IMG/VR virus record: IMGVR_UViG_3300032087_000620
Span: 1-21,678 of that record
Length of the DNA: 21,678 nucleotides
From: a virus
Strand: one strand, 5' to 3'
Numbering within the stretch: the stretch's first letter is position 1; every line of letters starts with the position of its first letter. Shown piece after piece: positions 1 through 7,686 of the stretch. Made by a program: the position numbers and the translations under genes. The notes beneath the pieces were generated by a model. That model was given only the letters and a program-made list of their open reading frames with translations. It was not told the origin of the DNA and did no database searches.

Positions 1-268
1 ATTGAATAGTATCTACACTTGGTTGAAAATCATTTATTGTTAAAAAATGAACATTGTATGTACTTTCTTGTATAGAAGTAAAAATTGCACTAGATAAAGC
101 TGATACATTTTTAGTTTCAATTAATTCTAATTGTCCAAATGTAGTCCATTTATTATCTGCTACTAATTCATTTATTTCAGCAGGATTGAATACACCTTTG
201 TTTAATCCAAAACTTTGTGCAGGTATATCTACCCCTACATATCCATACTTATTACTTTTATCACTCAT
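1..268 (-). CDS. Partial CDS: fourth paralogue (related to paralogue A), cut by the left edge
   Basis: Starting at the ATG at 268, directly after the TAG of paralogue C, a frame stays open for 89 codons to the window edge. The visible product begins MSDKSNKYGYVGVDIPAQSF and continues FNPAEINELVADNKWTTFG, QLELIETKNVSALSSAIFT and YNVHFLTINDFQPSVDTIQ. These line up with YGYLGQNTPNQ, SISDVADLEKQGKFGG, SLELIEEKSISAVSSADF and YDIHFLTINNV of paralogue A. AAGG lies a few bases upstream of the ATG. The C-terminal half lies outside the window. Confidence 0.85.
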   Translation of the reverse strand, partial: MSDKSNKYGYVGVDIPAQSFGLNKGVFNPAEINELVADNKWTTFGQLELIETKNVSALSSAIFTSIQESTYNVHFLTINDFQPSVDTIQ

Positions 269-775
269 CTATAACACCTTATATAATGTAAATGTTCCAC
301 TTGCAAAATTACTTGCACTTTCCCAATAAAAAACAATAGTATCACAAGCACTTGCCTGTGTTACAACTCCACCACCTTGTTGTCCAATCATTAGATTTGT
401 ATATGTTAAATAATTAGTTTCATAGGTAATAAAAGAATATTCACTAGCATTATTAAAATTAAATAAATAAAATATTCCCTGTCCTGTTTCATTTGCACCA
501 TTACCTGTTGCACCATTAATATCAAACCTTGTTGCACCACTTGCAGAATTATTACCAAAAGTTGTATCTGGTCTTAAATCTTTACTTGCCCTGCTATAAG
601 GTGTTAAAACTGTTGCACCATTTTTAAGTTGTATTCTCATATCTTTATTATCAGTAGCACATTGAACATTATTCATAGCAATCATATAAACATCATCAGT
701 AGTAATTTGATTAAAAGATACTTCTGCTACTGCACTTGTTACTGTTTCTGTTGCTACTTGTACTAATTTACCCAT
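269..775 (-). CDS. Tail-tip/decoration-like beta protein, paralogue C (168 residues)
   Basis: A third, more diverged member: VTSAVAEVSFNQITTDDVYM, MNNVQCATDNKDMRIQLKNG, and the C-terminal FASGTFTLYKVL in place of FNSGSIKIYGL. The middle region (AFG/NN-rich, residues about 70-115) is variable among the copies, as expected for surface loops. AAGG/AGGG lies six bases before the ATG. The stop TAG is followed immediately by the ATG of the next, truncated member. Confidence 0.75.
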   Translation of the reverse strand: MGKLVQVATETVTSAVAEVSFNQITTDDVYMIAMNNVQCATDNKDMRIQLKNGATVLTPYSRASKDLRPDTTFGNNSASGATRFDINGATGNGANETGQGIFYLFNFNNASEYSFITYETNYLTYTNLMIGQQGGGVVTQASACDTIVFYWESASNFASGTFTLYKVL

Positions 776-1304
776 TATCTACCCTTAGTCCATAAATTTT
801 TATACTTCCACTATTAAAATTTTCACTTGTACTTCCATTAAAAATATGTATTCCTGTAATTGAAGTTAATTGCTTTAATACACCTATTTGTTTGTTTCCA
901 TAAGCATAAGTACCAACTAAATGTCCTTGATTTTGATTTATGTAAAATGTGTATGAACTAGATGAAAATGGATTAAAAATATATCCTACACTTCCACCAC
1001 CTACTGTGTTAGATTGTTGTAACCAAAAATCTGCTCTATCAATATTTGTTCTAGTAATTGGTCTTTCTAAAAAAACATCTCCACTTCTCATCATTAAAGA
1101 AGCCATATCATAATTACTTGCAGATATAATACTTCCACTAGAATTTACAAATCTTACATCTTGGTCTGCACCTGCAGTTGTGGTAATACATAAAGTTGAA
1201 ACAATTTTGTAAATATCAAAATCTGCTGAAAATACATTATTAATAGTGATTGCAGTTACAGAAGTATCAGCAACAGTTTCATTAATTAATCTTAAAGCAC
1301 TCAT
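768..1304 (-). CDS. Tail-tip/decoration-like beta protein, paralogue B (178 residues)
   Basis: The same beta domain as the preceding gene: VADTSVTAITINNVFSADFD, then IYKIVSTLCITTTAG, DQDVRFVNSSGSII, and a C-terminal FNSGSIKIYGLRVDNG that matches the FS-x-x-(A/I)-K-(L/I)-YG ending of paralogue A. The N-terminal YGYLG segment is absent. The ATG at 1304 overlaps the previous TGA (ATGA). A TTG at 1337 could extend it by 11 residues but has no ribosome-binding support. The stop overlaps the next start by 8 nt. Structural role; function unknown. Confidence 0.78.
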   Translation of the reverse strand: MSALRLINETVADTSVTAITINNVFSADFDIYKIVSTLCITTTAGADQDVRFVNSSGSIISASNYDMASLMMRSGDVFLERPITRTNIDRADFWLQQSNTVGGGSVGYIFNPFSSSSYTFYINQNQGHLVGTYAYGNKQIGVLKQLTSITGIHIFNGSTSENFNSGSIKIYGLRVDNG

Positions 1305-1927
1305 AGTTGTTTTACTCCATAGAGTTTTGCAGTACAAGAAAAATTTGTTCCTGCATTTGACAGTAATCTTATTGCATTAATTGTTTCTGCAACTGCATAT
1401 ACACCACCACCAAATCTCATTTCTAAATTTCCACTACTTCTAATAGAATTTGATTGCCAATTTTGAAAACTATATTTTGAACTGTTTGACAAATTATATA
1501 AATATATATAACTATTTGATTTTTCATTTGTTGCATTACCTGTCAAACAAGTAGTAATTAAACTTGTTCCTGTAGTTGTTCTACTTTCTTGAAATGTTCC
1601 ATCACTTTCCCCCTGTTGATTTGCATATTGGTAATTTGAACTTTCAAAAGTGCTTCCACTATCATTAGAAAATCTTAATTGTAATCTATCATCATCTGTT
1701 GCAACATCTACATTATTAATAGTTAGAAAATGTATATCATAAAGTGTACCTTTTATATTTGTAAAATCTGCTGATGAAACTGCACTAATAGATTTTTCCT
1801 CAATAAGTTCTAAGCTACCACCAAACTTACCCTGTTTTTCTAAATCAGCTACATCAGATATAGAAAATACACCACTATTAGATTTAGTTTGATTTGGTGT
1901 ATTTTGTCCTAGATAACCATAAGGCAT
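1301..1927 (-). CDS. Tail-tip/decoration-like beta protein, paralogue A (208 residues)
   Basis: The N-terminal MPYGYLGQNTPNQTKSNSGVF and SISDVADLEKQGKFGGSLELI segments are followed by a beta domain (SAVSSADFTNIKGTLYDIHF, LTINNVDVATDDDRLQLRF) and a C-terminal strand pair ending FSCTAKLYGVKQL. The later domain recurs in the next two genes and in the truncated gene at the left edge. Such domains are frequent in phage virion proteins near fibre genes. AAGGAG six bases before the ATG gives a clear start. The stop overlaps the next ATG by four bases (ATGA). Receptor binding is possible from position, but there is no direct evidence. Confidence 0.8.
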   Translation of the reverse strand: MPYGYLGQNTPNQTKSNSGVFSISDVADLEKQGKFGGSLELIEEKSISAVSSADFTNIKGTLYDIHFLTINNVDVATDDDRLQLRFSNDSGSTFESSNYQYANQQGESDGTFQESRTTTGTSLITTCLTGNATNEKSNSYIYLYNLSNSSKYSFQNWQSNSIRSSGNLEMRFGGGVYAVAETINAIRLLSNAGTNFSCTAKLYGVKQL

Positions 1928-1937
1928 ATGTAACTCC

Positions 1938-2267
1938 TTATGTTATTTCTACGACACCCAGATATGCTTCTAAATCGCCTGAAGCTGCACCACCTGTAAG
2001 TTGTATATAATCTCCAGTTTCAAGAATAATCTTACTTGTTCCTGCTAACTCTATTGTTGTGTCTGCTGGAACAGATAATGTATTTGCGATTCTTGCATTT
2101 CCAGAAGTTCCATCTACGACATCTGCTGTAATAGTATCATCTGCTGCACCATCAACATTGGTAATTCTCAATGTGATAACAACAGATTCTGTACTTGCAG
2201 GTGCAGTATAGATAGTCTGTGCTGAACTGGTTACATCCAGGTATGCGTTCTTAAATGCTTCTGCCAT
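1938..2267 (-). CDS. Small beta-rich virion protein (109 residues)
   Basis: The product has a compact all-beta appearance: AQTIYTAPASTESVVITLRITNVDG, then strands in DDTITADVVDGTSGNARI, TLSVPADTTIELAGTSK and a C-terminal GDYIQLTGGAASGDLEAYLGVVEIT. Similar short proteins lie beside fibre genes in marine phages and are taken as structural; I know of no tested function. GAGG and GAG lie just before the ATG, with three to five bases' spacing. It lies between the fibre-like gene (9 bases after it) and the first small paralogue (10 bases before that gene), so it is probably part of the distal tail or a capsid decoration. Confidence 0.8.
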   Translation of the reverse strand: MAEAFKNAYLDVTSSAQTIYTAPASTESVVITLRITNVDGAADDTITADVVDGTSGNARIANTLSVPADTTIELAGTSKIILETGDYIQLTGGAASGDLEAYLGVVEIT

Positions 2268-2276
2268 TTTCTCCTC

Positions 2277-3860
2277 TTATCCTAATGCTAATACTAATCC
2301 TAGACTAACGCCACCACCACCACCAGCAGCAGTTAGAACACCATTACTTGCTGTAATTGTAGAACCATCTGCCATAGCTGTTGCTAAGTCTGCAATACTT
2401 TCTTTCTTAGATGAATTATCATCTGCATCTATTATAGCAATACTATCGTTTGCTACACTAACACTCGCAGCAGATAAATCATTTAAGTCTAGTTTTAACT
2501 CTGTTGTATCTATTGATAAACCACCATTGGTTTTTAAGTCTGTACTAAATACTGTGCCTGTTAAATCTAAACCATCACCTGCTGTATATTCTGTGTTGGT
2601 ATCTGTTGCAGCAATAGTAATAGAACCACCACCATTTGTAATAGTTACATTAGAACCTTGTGTTAATGTTGCTTTGTCTAATGTGTTACCTGTAGAGTTA
2701 CCTATTAATAACTGACCATCTGTATAGCTTGTCTGTCCTGTACCACCACTACCAACAACTAATGTTGCAGATAATCCTGCTGCTGTACCAGATGTGTTTT
2801 GTGTACCAGCAGTATCAACACCTGGCAGAGATATGTTTGCTGTACCATCAAATGATACACCACCAATAGTTCTTGCTGTTTCTAAAGCTGTTGCTGTTGA
2901 TGCGTTACCAGTTAAGTCACCTGTAACATTAACAGTAATACTAGAAGGCAGACCTATTGTAAGTGTTTGTCCAGTAGCAGATGTTTCTATCTCGTTAGTT
3001 GTACCTGCTATGGTAAATGTCTGACTATCTAAATCTACAGAGCCTGTGCCTGTGTCACCACCAAAGTCTAAATCCTCTCCTGTCACTTGTGCATCTACAT
3101 AAGCAGTTGTTGCTACTTTAGTAGAGTTATCACTAGCAGATTGTGTTGTAGCTGTTACGCCATCTGCAAGTACAGAAGTAGCAGTTACATTACCAGTTAA
3201 ATCACCTGTAACATTTCCTGTCACATTGACAGTAATAGATGATGGTAGACCTATAGTAAGTGTTTGACCTGTTGCACTTGTTTCAACTTCATTTGCTGTA
3301 CCAGCAATAGTAAATGTTTGTGAATCTAAATCAACTGCACCAGTTCCACTATCACCACCAAAATCTAAGTCTTGTGCTGTTACCTGGCTATCTACATAGG
3401 CTTTAACTGATTGCTGTGTTACACCTTTAGTAGCACTATCAGAAACCATATCATCTTCATCTAAAAATAATGTTGTATTGACTGCTGTACCAGCTTCGTT
3501 AATTATGGTATCTACCCTGTCATTTATATCTTCAATGTGTTGTGCCATAGGAACATAACGAATTGTTGAACCTGATGCGTGTGATAAACCAGAAGTTGCT
3601 GATGAGCCTTTTAAAAATCTATATGATGAACCACCATCTCCTAATGTAATTGTTTTTGTACCAACATTAATTGCAGAAACAAGTACATACTCTCTGTTGG
3701 TTGATGAATCTGGTTCTATAACAAGATAACAAGGTGCTTCTATATTATTACTAGCAGCATCAGTAACTGCTGTTAATGTTGCAGTTGTGCCTGAAGCTCC
3801 TAATGTTGTTGATAAAGTTGTTTCAAACGCATTTAAAAGTTTTGTTTCTTGTGCTGTCAT
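2277..3860 (-). CDS. Tail fibre-like protein with internal duplication
   Basis: A 527-residue Thr/Gly/Ser/Asp-rich protein typical of trimeric phage fibres. The N-terminus (20-110) holds a beta module ending in an H-x-x-GS motif (SHASGSTIRYVP) and a helix, as in virion-attachment domains. A 63-residue unit (153-215 and 252-314) is repeated about 99 residues apart, with conserved AYVD-x-QVT, DLDFGGD, VDLDSQTFTIAGT and IGLPSSITVNVTG. The next segment TATALETARTIGGVSFDGTANI is a widespread fibre motif in marine phages. The C-terminus ends in a Gly-rich run (AAGGGGGVSLGLVLALG) with no obvious chaperone or enzyme domain. The likely role is the shaft of a receptor-binding fibre. The start is the ATG in GGATAGAATG, one base after the previous TAG. 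Confidence 0.88.
   Translation of the reverse strand: MTAQETKLLNAFETTLSTTLGASGTTATLTAVTDAASNNIEAPCYLVIEPDSSTNREYVLVSAINVGTKTITLGDGGSSYRFLKGSSATSGLSHASGSTIRYVPMAQHIEDINDRVDTIINEAGTAVNTTLFLDEDDMVSDSATKGVTQQSVKAYVDSQVTAQDLDFGGDSGTGAVDLDSQTFTIAGTANEVETSATGQTLTIGLPSSITVNVTGNVTGDLTGNVTATSVLADGVTATTQSASDNSTKVATTAYVDAQVTGEDLDFGGDTGTGSVDLDSQTFTIAGTTNEIETSATGQTLTIGLPSSITVNVTGDLTGNASTATALETARTIGGVSFDGTANISLPGVDTAGTQNTSGTAAGLSATLVVGSGGTGQTSYTDGQLLIGNSTGNTLDKATLTQGSNVTITNGGGSITIAATDTNTEYTAGDGLDLTGTVFSTDLKTNGGLSIDTTELKLDLNDLSAASVSVANDSIAIIDADDNSSKKESIADLATAMADGSTITASNGVLTAAGGGGGVSLGLVLALG
2919..3107 (-). repeat. Fibre repeat unit, copy 2
   Basis: This encodes residues 252-314 and lies about 99 residues after copy 1. 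The intervening 36 residues (VTGDLTGNVTATSVLADGV and onward) contain short VTG/LTGN units that also follow copy 2, suggesting the whole block was duplicated. Confidence 0.85.
3216..3404 (-). repeat. Fibre repeat unit, copy 1
   Basis: This encodes residues 153-215 of the fibre-like protein. It shares nearly every residue with the copy at 2919-3107, with small changes such as TAQ versus TGE and GAVDLD versus GSVDLD. The DNA of the two copies has drifted at third positions, so the duplication is not recent. Confidence 0.85.
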
Positions 3861-3861
3861 T

Positions 3862-5778
3862 CTATCCTAATCTATCTACTCCTAATAATCCTACACCTAA
3901 TTTAGAACTTGCAGTAGAAACTGTAAATATTTTACTACCTCTAAATCGTACTAAACAATATACAGTTGTACTACCTCTATTGCTTATTTCCTCAATAGGT
4001 GCTGATACATTCTCTATGATACCACGCAAAAAGGTTTGTGGTCTGTATATCTCTAATTGGACATTCTTACCTTCTTTGTTACGCAGAGCTTGATATATAA
4101 GGTCACCTTGACCTGTCACTTTAAGTGCTTTTCTATATGGTCTTTCTACTTGGTCAGATATATTTATAGGCATATCTACAATTAAATCCTCTACTAACTG
4201 GAAGCCTCTAACAGCAAATGACAGTAATTCAGGAGATATATTTGTATCATTTGTTGTAATATCTATCTTGACTGCTAACCATCTACCTATAACATTTTCT
4301 ACAATCTGTTCTTCACCACCAACACCACCAGTAATACTTACTTGTTCTGACCAAGTATTAGCAGTAGGTGCATTTATATCTTCAGGTGATATAGATGTAG
4401 ATAGCTTTACAGAACCAGCAGATACTGTATTACAAGTAACTTTTGCTCCTACCCATTGTTTCTTTTCTGATGTAAAGAAATCAGCTAGTGCCATAATTAC
4501 ATATCCTGCTGACACATAACTTGTGCTTTCTCTATACAAACCACCACCTGATACTGTTGCAAATATTCTGTCAGAGAATACTGCTATACCCTCTACTATC
4601 CCACTTTCACCAAACTCTAAATCTCTAGCTATACCACCTGTTGGTAGATAATATCGCCACAGATTTGTTTTACTTGCACTATCTACTATGCCTGTATAAA
4701 TACTATCTCTAGTGGATATAATTTTATAAGGTGCTTGATTAAGTGTTGTTGAACCATTACCCCATTGTTTAAGTAACTGTGCATTGACTAAGACATACAA
4801 ACTATTTGCATTTGTTATTTCTGCTACATATAGTCTGCCAATCTTTCCACTAGCAGTGTTCTGATATGTACCATAAAATATAAGACCTTGTGCTGCATCT
4901 ATTGCATTAGGCACTTCCCCTTCTATAAATGTCTGACCTTTTAGTGTAAGACTTGATGATTCATCTGCAAAAGAATATATATAACCATCTGTTGCACAAG
5001 CTAATACTACTGCACCACCATCTGCTAAGTCTGTCCACTCTGTGCCAGTAGGTAATGTTTTCATAGTTGTTGGTGTGCTACCATCAGGTATTTCAAACAA
5101 ATCACCAGAAGTATCACTAGCAACAATACGACCTTTCATAGACCATATTTTGCTATAAGTCTTATGATTGTTGTGTACAGAGTAAGTAGAAGCAGCAGTT
5201 CTTACATACACATCACCATTAGCAACTAGGTATAGCCTTGTTCCTAAGACAGCCATACCTGTAATATCATTACCTGCACTAGGTGCAGTTTCAGATGTTA
5301 CAGATGGACTAGTATCTAATGGCGAATCAATCCTTTTTAACACATCACCATCTGCAAAGAATATAGAACCACTTAATTCTTGCATATATAAATTTGTTTC
5401 TGTTGTGCTACTTAATTCATCAGTATCGTGTAGTAATGATACTTTGTATTCGTTACCTACATCTTTACCACTAAATACATCTACACCTTTACTATCCCAA
5501 TATTTTTGGAAATCAAATTGTCCTGCATTTCTCTGATGTGCTTTATCTAAACCACTACCACCAGAAAAGTCTGTCCTAGAATAAATCTGACCAAACTCTT
5601 GTTGGAAATCTTCTGGTGTTTCTGATGTATTTATAGCTTGTGCCTGTAGTGGCGAAGTGTTTATATTAAGTTGCCTACCAGGACCAGCAGCAAAGCGTAA
5701 AAACAAATCATCTAAATCTGCTTCATAGCCAAAAGCCTGTGGGTGTGATGTGTTAGCAGAGGAAGGTAATACTGCCAT
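3862..5778 (-). CDS. Large beta-propeller-like tail protein
   Basis: A 638-residue beta-rich protein. The N-terminus (1-110) has FGYEADLDDLFLRF and a YWDSKGVD segment. Residues about 130-425 repeat short units in which a hydrophobic strand follows a turn, for example YMQELSGSIFFADGDVLKRI, MAVLGTRLYLVANGDVYVRT and IWSMKGRIVASDTSGDLFEI, as in a beta-propeller. Residues 440-527 look like a beta-sandwich (TCNTVSAGSVKLSTSISPED to FAVRGF), and 530-638 form a final beta domain, as in tail hub or nozzle proteins. Its order after the adaptor and before the fibre agrees with a tail nozzle or hub component of a short tail; the exact role is inference. It starts by TAATG coupling without a Shine-Dalgarno. 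Confidence 0.82.
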   Translation of the reverse strand: MAVLPSSANTSHPQAFGYEADLDDLFLRFAAGPGRQLNINTSPLQAQAINTSETPEDFQQEFGQIYSRTDFSGGSGLDKAHQRNAGQFDFQKYWDSKGVDVFSGKDVGNEYKVSLLHDTDELSSTTETNLYMQELSGSIFFADGDVLKRIDSPLDTSPSVTSETAPSAGNDITGMAVLGTRLYLVANGDVYVRTAASTYSVHNNHKTYSKIWSMKGRIVASDTSGDLFEIPDGSTPTTMKTLPTGTEWTDLADGGAVVLACATDGYIYSFADESSSLTLKGQTFIEGEVPNAIDAAQGLIFYGTYQNTASGKIGRLYVAEITNANSLYVLVNAQLLKQWGNGSTTLNQAPYKIISTRDSIYTGIVDSASKTNLWRYYLPTGGIARDLEFGESGIVEGIAVFSDRIFATVSGGGLYRESTSYVSAGYVIMALADFFTSEKKQWVGAKVTCNTVSAGSVKLSTSISPEDINAPTANTWSEQVSITGGVGGEEQIVENVIGRWLAVKIDITTNDTNISPELLSFAVRGFQLVEDLIVDMPINISDQVERPYRKALKVTGQGDLIYQALRNKEGKNVQLEIYRPQTFLRGIIENVSAPIEEISNRGSTTVYCLVRFRGSKIFTVSTASSKLGVGLLGVDRLG

Positions 5779-6680
5779 TATGCACTATAGTTTATGTTCA
5801 TTATGGACACAGGTGCAGGATAAAGAGAACGAAGATTACCTCGTGCTTCATCTATCAACAACGACCTAAGTCTAAGTAGTGCATTTCTAAGTCTTTCTCC
5901 TGAACCAACTGGATAGTTTTCTTGTGCTAGTTTTTCTGTAATAAACTCTTGTGTTGTTGCATCTATATCTGTAGCACCTACAATGTCAGCTACAGCACCA
6001 ACCATAACTATTTGTTCGTACTCGTTAGATATTAAACAAGTAGTTGCAAGGTCATCTGTTTCTGCTGTTGGTCTTACAAACTTTCTCTTAACAACTAAAT
6101 GTACTGTTTTACCATTAGTTGTGTTGTAAAACTGTACAGCAGTATTAGTTGTAGAAGGTGGAAAATCTCTAAGTAGTTCTATACCAGCAGATGTGTATTG
6201 TTCTCCACTAGCATTCTGTACATAAGAAGTTAGTATCTCAACTGTACTTGCCGGAACTTCTGCGTATGTTGAATTAGAGGTTACATTAGTTGTAGTTACA
6301 TTGTATAAACTTGGATATAACCTTACTATGTTATCTGCTACTGCATCAAACACAGACTTACGAGGAAATGTTGGATTTAAAAATATATTATCTTTGTCAG
6401 AATGTGCTGCTGCTGTTGTACCAGCATATCCTCTGGAAACTGTTAATACTCTTGTAGAAGGGTTAGCATCAGTAACTAACATAAGTTCTTGGTCTATTTC
6501 TACTAATGCACCTGCTTCTAACAAGTTTTCTTCTTCTACACTAAACAAACCATCTTCATAAGTAAGTGAGGTATCTGAATCTGTAATAGCACCATCTAAC
6601 CTAGAGAACGCTGCTAAATCATCAGGTTTGTTTAAAAAATCTCTATATATTCTATCTACAAGTGTGCTTACTGCTGCCAT
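5778..6680 (-). CDS. Head-tail adaptor / connector candidate
   Basis: The 300-residue product follows the capsid gene, where connector proteins usually sit. An N-terminal helix (VDRIYRDFL) is followed by a small beta domain at about residues 30-100: VEIDQELMLVTD, then TVSRGYAGTTAAAHSD and IFLNP. Next comes a helix (FPRKSVFDAVADNIVRLYP, 105-123), then beta-rich sequence and a C-terminal helical part (SGERLRNALLRLRSLLIDEA, 255-274). The RGY-x-GT-x-AA-x-H pattern with a following NP-x-F is familiar from proteins beside phage capsid genes. A related module appears at the N-terminus of the fibre-like protein in this window. Gatekeeper or tail-tube-like functions are alternatives. The stop overlaps the next start (TAATG), without any Shine-Dalgarno. 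Confidence 0.82.
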   Translation of the reverse strand: MAAVSTLVDRIYRDFLNKPDDLAAFSRLDGAITDSDTSLTYEDGLFSVEEENLLEAGALVEIDQELMLVTDANPSTRVLTVSRGYAGTTAAAHSDKDNIFLNPTFPRKSVFDAVADNIVRLYPSLYNVTTTNVTSNSTYAEVPASTVEILTSYVQNASGEQYTSAGIELLRDFPPSTTNTAVQFYNTTNGKTVHLVVKRKFVRPTAETDDLATTCLISNEYEQIVMVGAVADIVGATDIDATTQEFITEKLAQENYPVGSGERLRNALLRLRSLLIDEARGNLRSLYPAPVSIMNINYSA

Positions 6681-6732: not shown

Positions 6733-6762
6733 CTATCTAACTACTTATTAGGAAGTAGATAG
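6733..6762 (-). repeat. Inverted repeat spanning the capsid stop codon
   Basis: CTACTT (6758-6753) pairs with AAGTAG (6746-6741) around a six-base loop holding the first part of the stop region. An outer CTATCT (6762-6757) can instead pair with AGATAG (6738-6733). The stop codon TAA (6750-6748) falls at the loop. It forms a pair with the stronger hairpin just downstream. Confidence 0.5.
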
Positions 6763-7686
6763 TGTTGTAATTTTGCCGTGGAATTGCTCTGGACCATATT
6801 CTAATCCGACCTCTCCATAGATTTGGAACTTATAAGCTGAACCAGTTTGTGCAAGTGGCTCTGCGAAGAAGTGTCCTTTTCCAGGAATGTCTAAGAATAC
6901 TGGCTTACAATACGCAAGGTCAGCAATCATAATATCATCAACAGGCATATGTCTGTCATAGACAATACCTACTTCACCAAAGTCAGTTTCAATGGTTGTG
7001 ATATTTACACCACCAATGTTTCTATCTCTTGGTGCAAGTGATAATGCACTTGAATAGATTGATGATAGTTTTTGCTTTTGAAAAGCGTTAGCAAAAATAA
7101 CTGGTTGCTCAAAAGGAGCTCCATTATCTGCCATTGACTTTAACAATGAATCAACTTTAGCTTGGTCAAGAGCTGCTGAAGCTGCTGCTACTTCGTTAGT
7201 TGTAATAGCTGCCAACATACCTCTTGTTTTTCTAGCTGTTGATACATCTGTGTCTGCAACATAAGTACCTTTCAAGAAAGAGAACTCTATATCTCTAGCT
7301 GCTCTTTTCATAGCCATATCCAATTGGAAAGCTAATTCATCTTGTACTGGTTGGTTTCCTAAAATGGATTCTCCACTTAGGTTACCTGTTGCTGCTTGTT
7401 TTGTGTATGAAACGTGTACACCATATTGCATAATTTGAGTAACATTTGTTACTTCGCTTCTACTTCTTTCTGCGAAAGTTGCATCTGCACCTTCAGCAAC
7501 TACTGTTTGAGCTGCTGCTGCATTGTCAACTGTTTGCCAGGTGAATTGTTTAGAGGTAACTGATTTACCGCCTGTCATTCCACCAATTGCAGAAAGGAAA
7601 GGTGTATCGTTAGGTGTTATGTTAAATAACTCTCCTACGTAATTCGGGAGGTCATACGAGTCTCCCAATCCTGATACTGCACCCAT
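6748..7686 (-). CDS. Major capsid protein, SU10-like HK97-fold family
   Basis: The 312-residue product forms the capsid shell. Features matching the SU10-type major capsid family (formerly a DUF5309 family, by memory) include the N-terminal NITPNDTPFLSAIGG (22-36), the QFTWQTVDN segment (47-55), EGADATFAERSRSEVTNVTQ (65-84) followed by a VSYT motif, a helix with QDELAFQLDMAMKRAARDIE (about 115-135), and the C-terminal IYGEVGLEYGPEQFHGKI. There is no N-terminal prohead-protease extension. AAAGGAG six bases before the ATG is the best Shine-Dalgarno in this part of the window, consistent with high expression, and a dedicated promoter lies upstream. The gene is followed by tandem inverted repeats in the only other small gap. 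Confidence 0.92.
   Translation of the reverse strand: MGAVSGLGDSYDLPNYVGELFNITPNDTPFLSAIGGMTGGKSVTSKQFTWQTVDNAAAAQTVVAEGADATFAERSRSEVTNVTQIMQYGVHVSYTKQAATGNLSGESILGNQPVQDELAFQLDMAMKRAARDIEFSFLKGTYVADTDVSTARKTRGMLAAITTNEVAAASAALDQAKVDSLLKSMADNGAPFEQPVIFANAFQKQKLSSIYSSALSLAPRDRNIGGVNITTIETDFGEVGIVYDRHMPVDDIMIADLAYCKPVFLDIPGKGHFFAEPLAQTGSAYKFQIYGEVGLEYGPEQFHGKITTLSTS

Follow-up and report, generated by a model that had tools for sequence, protein, structure and literature searches.

The record of an uncultured marine phage analysed here, a stretch of 21,678 nt referred to as the window, carries on its minus strand, behind a tail fibre gene, part of an array built from cassettes of three paralogous genes. 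Across related viruses, the three genes keep the order 1-2-3, each position (slot) has its own lineage, and the cassettes are conserved in synteny with fibre genes, hypervariable in sequence, and exchanged slot by slot. We infer, with a probability of roughly 0.6, that each cassette encodes a heterotrimeric receptor-binding tip carried on the fibre, and that the subunits of this tip are shuffled slot-wise between phages. The overlapping genes of one cassette would give three paralogous beta-sandwich subunits (positions 1, 2, and 3), which most likely assemble 1:1:1 into the tip. The leader of subunit 1 would hang the tip on the upstream fibre, perhaps via a small adaptor protein, and a typical virus would bear two tips from cassettes A and B, differing in leaders and base residues. 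The outer parts of the subunits would diverge fast, phages would swap whole single subunits or cassettes by recombination at conserved gene ends and always into the same slot, and the six slots would provide a combinatorial diversity of host recognition.

The array occupies bases 2-1927 and consists of three genes in full and a fourth truncated by the contig end, all encoding paralogous beta-sandwich proteins (Table 1). As the record starts at base 1, the end of the array is absent from it. Judged by sequence, the array reads 1a-2a-3a-1b(cut), so that the remainder of 1b as well as 2b and 3b are probably missing beyond the window edge. For 2a, the ATG at 1304 (forming an ATGA overlap with the stop codon of 1a) is preferred to the TTG at 1337 suggested by the ORF finder; such an overlap is common across the triplet family. 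The leader of 1a is of the first-cassette type, and that of 1b (residues 1-44, bases 137-268) is of the second-cassette type, as at position 1b of arrays with six genes (hexamers). Along the minus strand, the packaging end is followed by a 1661-aa protein, the capsid protein, two conserved genes, the fibre, the 109-aa protein, and the array.

Table 1. Features of the window in and upstream of the cassette array.
Feature	Position	Strand	Description
1b, position-1 gene of the second cassette, cut	2..268	-	89 aa visible; long leader and start of the beta domain
3a, position-3 gene of the first cassette	269..775	-	168 aa; single beta domain, without leader
2a, position-2 gene of the first cassette	768..1304	-	178 aa counted from the ATG at 1304
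1a, position-1 gene of the first cassette	1301..1927	-	208 aa; leader residues 1-35, beta-sandwich 36-208
1a leader	1823..1927	-	Leader kind seen on position-1 proteins only (alignments of positions 1-3)
Small beta protein, proposed adaptor	1938..2267	-	109 aa; between fibre and cassette; phrog_1276 1.6e-7
Tail fibre	2277..3860	-	527 aa; PHROG tail fibre matches; C-terminus GGVSLGLVLALG
Conserved gene	3862-5778	-	Between capsid protein and tail fibre
Conserved gene	5778-6680	-	Between capsid protein and tail fibre
SU10-type major capsid protein	6748-7686	-	PF17236, 3e-82

An earlier reading made from the sequence alone (the sequence-only reading) had described these genes as three complete and one partial paralogue with a shared beta domain, the partial one being most like the first, and had placed them beside fibre genes; all of this was borne out. 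Local alignments gave scores of 182 for 1a/3a (z 21), 159 for 1a/1b (z 25), 98 for 1a/2a (z 10), and 86 for 2a/3a (z 8.5), each matched by 0 of 1000 shuffles, and by this measure the paralogy of the array genes is certain. The visible part of 1b clearly matches 1a only (1b/2a z 0.1; 1b/3a z 2.6, reached by 19 of 1000 shuffles), because 1b ends early in the domain, and the cut gene resembles 1a because it is position 1 of the second cassette. A recent duplication of gene 1 was rejected, as the cut gene bears the leader of the 1b lineage.

An AlphaFold2 model of 1a, based on 98 rows of position-1 relatives, has a mean pLDDT of 89.5. It predicts a beta-sandwich of 11 strands, with a pLDDT of about 97 for residues 40-200, and a short helix in the leader (residues 23-31) that is preceded by a stretch of low confidence. 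Genes 1 and 2 of a relative are predicted to have a strand order of the same kind, in line with one shared fold. Solved structures resembled 1a weakly (Foldseek best E 2e-3; best Z 8.7), namely the C-terminal sandwich of GH32 (Z 8.7, rmsd 3.1, 122 residues), the N domain of galectin-8 (Z 7.1, rmsd 3.2, 121 residues), and residues 83-207 of lambda J (Z 6.7). The galectin and GH32 scores of the model fall within the range of common arrangements, and the PDB matches leave the oligomer unsettled. A C1q-like fold was absent among the structure matches listed for 1a, which counts nothing against such a fold, and a profile search of solved structures gave one match at chance level. Predicted viral proteins, in contrast, matched the fold strongly with 126 models at E <= 1e-3 (best 2e-22); annotations among them include tail fibre, Stf-repeat, and collagen triple-helix protein. 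Stf-repeat and collagen triple-helix proteins are trimeric. We read these matches as suggesting that the beta-sandwich is a receptor-binding tip domain of a type often carried on trimeric stalks.

At the level of profiles, no array member had a significant Pfam match (window members searched at E <= 1, members of the close relative L109 at E <= 0.01), and in the same searches the collar domain PF07484 was not found in positions 1-3. The profile of PHROG 14820, a family of unknown function, matched 1a with E 1.2e-4 over 21-206 of its 206 positions and 3a with 0.032; in L109, the values were 1.1e-5 for 1a and 7.9e-4 for 3a, and a single gene in L053 reached 1.9e-10. Positions 1 and 3 are matched weakly only, and the position-2 proteins of the window and L109 not at all. 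By profile and fold, the cassette proteins thus share a domain with PHROG 14820 and with single-gene proteins of marine phages; these relatives are single genes or fibre C-termini, unlike the cassettes. Searched by tblastn against deposited phages, 1a of the window remained without a match at E <= 1e-5, as did one relative each of positions 1, 2, and 3 at E <= 0.01, in a collection which may miss uncultured viruses; the viral structure library does contain relatives.

Whether the array grows by amplification was decided by its copy number. Altogether 317 sequences including the window, from scans with 1a, the capsid protein, and positions 1, 2, and 3, were searched, and their genes were classed by three position profiles, giving 253 runs that formed 163 groups after merging runs with an identical protein. 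A run was taken as complete with at least 600 bases on both sides (73 groups), and 90 groups with less than 600 on either side were set aside. Among the complete runs, 48 were 123123, one was 123123 with a weak 2, 19 were 123, one was irregular, and four were divergent single-gene relatives. Therefore, 68 of the 69 complete arrays of the triplet family have exactly three or six genes in the order 1-2-3, and all 90 incomplete runs, lone genes included, are consistent with a cut 123123 or 123. Copy number is quantised, and amplification in the sense of copy-number growth, as assumed in the sequence-only reading, was rejected. As the scans with positions 1-3 could favour triplets, the 22 long records of the window lineage found via the capsid protein are a fairer sample: five carry the triplet family with one or two whole triplets each (L017, L022, L047, L053, and L060), two carry single-gene relatives only (L026 and L036), and 15 carry none, some of these being fragments. 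The commonest junctions are -4 or -1 between genes 1 and 2, -1 between 2 and 3, and 0 or +2 in most cases between 3 and 1.

A few loci deviate from the usual arrangement. In the sole irregular array (L254 6001-8525), the first cassette has no position-2 gene and short ORFs are present, which reflects decay or an assembly error. Two separate triplets are found about 1.2 kb apart on one contig in L226 (5376-7034 and 8242-9847). Divergent single-gene versions with another N-terminus occur in L053 (15896-16543), L080 (6721-7359), L026 (16439-17997), and L067 (11421-12011), most of them followed by an own small assembly-like protein, and they possibly represent the ancestor type.

The three positions behave as separate lineages. 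Of 483 proteins drawn from 161 cassettes, 482 have a nearest neighbour of their own position once their own locus is disregarded, a count that is partly circular as the labels were assigned by sequence; no such circularity affects the order in which the labels follow each other on the DNA. In a maximum-likelihood tree of 64 rows, the positions form separate groups with the single-gene relatives outside, with several weakly supported forks, long branches, and one position-3 row standing apart. These comparisons indicate that positions 1, 2, and 3 are old and non-interchangeable lineages. The genes of one cassette nevertheless co-diverge as a unit that is decoupled at the 3a|1b boundary: across 71 hexamers (2485 pairs), identity vectors correlate within a cassette with r 0.27-0.54, whereas the abutting 3a and 1b are uncoupled (r 0.05; 0.06 in subsamples). 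Without pairs having any gene above 55% identity, the values are 0.29-0.57 within the cassette vs 0.07 at 3a/1b.

Variation among close relatives is strong. L109 matches the window at 92.9% DNA identity along a 3.3-kb stretch reaching to the fibre, and the identity of two neighbouring proteins is 97%, whereas the array proteins share 42% (1a), 53% (2a), 46% (3a), and 55% (1b, 84 residues compared) identity, a contrast that points to hypervariability within one close lineage. Within 1a, the mean entropy is 1.96 bits in strands vs 2.04 bits in loops; the conserved strands and variable loops described in the sequence-only reading are thus borne out in part only, the variability being spread over both. 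Variability in 1a is among the lowest at residues 38-50 (first strand), 145-152 (a turn), and 196-206 (last strand), and the most variable stretches lie around 76-81, 121-129, and 163-167.

Part of this variation comes from exchange of single genes. Among the 2485 hexamer pairs, 79 share a gene at >= 75% identity, in 68 cases exactly one gene, these counts resting on 71 hexamers of which 22 have a short flank. Measured by medians, the block in common begins 25 bases ahead of the gene and extends 45 bases past it, and in 52 of the 68 cases neither breakpoint is more than 150 bp away from the gene end. Less than 10% of the shorter flank could be aligned in 45 of the 68, and nothing in 18. The first 30 bases of the genes have a mean identity of 0.70-0.84 vs 0.35-0.6 for much of the interior, and these conserved gene starts could serve recombination. 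In all 90 exchange pairs between hexamers, the gene remained in the same slot of the same cassette, with no a-to-b transfer and none across positions, and 13 further pairs involving lone triplets also kept the position. One trace of exchange is present in the window itself: over its final 132 visible bases, 1b matches gene 1 of L034 at 93% identity, and L034 is a lone triplet whose leader differs. Judged from these alignments, variation arises by divergence and slot-wise exchange of single genes and cassettes, not by gain or loss of copies.

Covariation between the three proteins was assessed in the 194 cassettes in which none of the genes is incomplete, and it gave signs of mutual fit. Residues at the base of the proteins, at either terminus, vary together between positions and split the cassettes into two classes, A and B, which were picked from the same data after inspection and are concordant in all three proteins in 170 of 194 cassettes, openly mixed in 7, and accompanied by other residues at one or more sites in 17. 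First cassettes are of class A in 67 of 69 cases, and second cassettes are of class B in 62 of 77 and never all-A. Within both classes, the best pair between positions 1 and 2 exceeds all 60 permutations, and the best 2-3 and 1-3 pairs are not above the permutations. In L175, all three genes are in one frame; the read-through of its genes 1 and 2, modelled as one chain (37 rows), reached pLDDT 85 and pTM 0.67, a value lying between independent and firmly packed domains and speaking clearly for neither.

Constant whole triplets, coupling by overlaps, one leader per triplet, mutual fit, and closed slots are as a 1:1:1 complex predicts. A point against the heterotrimer is that extensive exchange of single subunits needs interfaces tolerant of new partners. 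The main rival, which we consider unlikely, assumes that each of the three (or six) receptor-binding proteins of a phage forms a homotrimer of its own for a distinct receptor, with the genes kept together as an operon, and explains the constant gene number by fixed docking sites on the tail instead of one mixed complex. This would agree with the exchange of genes on their own, with the single-gene relatives (L053 15896, L067, L080, and L026), and with a fibre-fused version of the domain in L056, all of these relatives presumably being homotrimers. Separate homotrimers would, however, lead one to expect lone 1s, 2s, or 3s or other numbers, yet 68 of 69 arrays are whole triplets; moreover, a leader is present on position 1 only, the terminal residues covary across the three proteins, and docking sites alone would not force 1a, 2a, and 3a to co-diverge while 3a|1b is decoupled.

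That decoupling also speaks against a larger assembly, in which the six proteins would build a single hetero-hexamer or a stack of two trimers on the same fibre. Six-gene arrays do dominate (49 of 68), and the identities of 1a and 1b correlate somewhat (r 0.29). Yet a single cassette makes up 19 of 68 complete arrays, and the cassettes of L226 are separated by about 1.2 kb, so we regard a larger assembly as improbable, and one heterotrimer per cassette is preferred.

The neighbourhood suggests how such a tip could be anchored. The fibre C-terminal motif GGVSLGLVLALG is common to proteins upstream of other cassettes: in 106 arrays with 2 kb of upstream sequence, a protein ending in (G)V(S/T)LGLVLAL lies within 1.6 kb upstream in 55, and the nearest upstream gene encodes 100-119 aa in 84. 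Homologues of the 109-aa protein type of the window occur at 46 of 250 array loci. Behind the array, a protein of 80-130 aa with QLD/QFD is present in 86 of 95 arrays with room downstream. The module would thus comprise a fibre, an adaptor, a single or double cassette, and an assembly-like protein, with function names that are putative. L109, in which a complete six-gene array precedes a protein of 100 aa (phrog_9114), a threonine/glutamate-rich one of 631 aa, and a DUF5675 protein, probably shows what follows beyond the cut end of the window, as judged from the close sequence relationship. The 631-aa protein (L109 8695-10590) has a signal-like start, a TTT/PPP run, and a very acidic tail, and a similar protein is encoded in L321 (10805-11740). 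In L056 (9160-11313), the fibre type of the window, here with 717 aa, carries the same beta domain at its C-terminus (residues 557-713) instead of a cassette.

Neighbourhood, fibre-tip homologues, and hypervariability argue for receptor binding, and leader and adaptor would provide the anchor for the heterotrimer. The role in host recognition that the sequence-only reading had suggested for the array is likely; the members have one fold and vary strongly between close relatives, so neither of the outcomes that would have refuted that reading, different folds or a lack of variation, occurred. Capsid decoration or another surface function instead of tail-borne receptor binding would fit the missing Pfam matches, the functionless PHROG 14820, and a virophage precedent whose tails were placed on the capsid by modelling (PMC12724248), but is very improbable given the fixed place behind fibre and small beta protein, the fusion of the domain to a fibre in L056, and viral structural matches that include annotated tail fibre proteins.

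The closest known system is this precedent, Dishui Lake virophage 2 (DSLV2), in which the proteins of three consecutive tail genes are reported to co-purify as a heterotrimer and to bind Synechococcus cells (PMC12724248). As in the marine arrays, three consecutive genes of similar size keep their order across viruses and form position-specific clades (PMC12724248). DSLV2 shows that a heterotrimer can be made from a row of three tail genes with conserved positions. DSLV2 is, however, a virophage and not a tailed phage, has a gp37-tip-like fold with a PF07484 collar and one triplet, and, in the part of the report considered here, no single-subunit leader or slot-wise exchange is described, unlike for the marine cassettes (PMC12724248). 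Marine phages have metaviromic islands rich in recognition genes, including C1q-like receptor-binding genes of pelagiphages (PMC3909814). Known in kind are tip domains, host-recognition islands, and one virophage heterotrimer. Phage receptor-binding tips are generally homotrimers from one gene, and the head of C1q mixes three beta-sandwich chains that are encoded by adjacent paralogous genes; the cassettes may work like this head, which is meant as an analogy only. A literature search, with subscription journals mostly outside its reach, gave no case of a heterotrimeric fibre or receptor-binding protein in tailed phages recognisable by title or start of the abstract. The doubled triplet in tailed phages with slot-locked exchange of subunits, which this search did not find described, appears to be new.

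In its widest form, the proposal says that Actinomarina and other abundant marine bacteria have tailed phages with two heterotrimeric tips and six slot-specific subunits, drawn from a pool of slot alleles reassorted gene by gene between distantly related backbones; we give this even odds. If true, the combination of three different chains would determine specificity. The host-recognition islands of marine phages could then be explained in a testable way, as could the ability of phages of uncultured actinobacteria to keep pace with the diversity of envelopes. Annotations counting such genes as duplicated copies would also be corrected.

Candidatus Actinomarina is one host of array-bearing phages: a single-cell contig of Ca. 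Actinomarina AG-919-G14 (L321) carries a complete 123123 array behind a tape-measure protein. For this genome, a phage sequence of 29 kb was described that contains WhiB as well as a variable part (PMC7771536). Its complete array is like those of the cassette family, and the variable part was known from metagenomic recruitment; in the part of the paper considered here, it is described as proteins for sialic acid removal and not as a cassette (PMC7771536). The AG-919-G14 phage differs from the window in having a tail with a tape-measure protein. WhiB, taken as a mark of the host, was present in 3 of 36 records tried and in 0 of 22 of the window lineage. A position-3 relative is located on a 4.6-kb contig of a Maricaulis MAG (L322 1183-1683), which is possibly misbinned. 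For the window itself, the nearest deposited relatives of the capsid protein are those of mycobacteriophages (48.6%) and Propionibacterium phages, with identities ranging from about 49 to 45%, and an actinobacterial host is likely.
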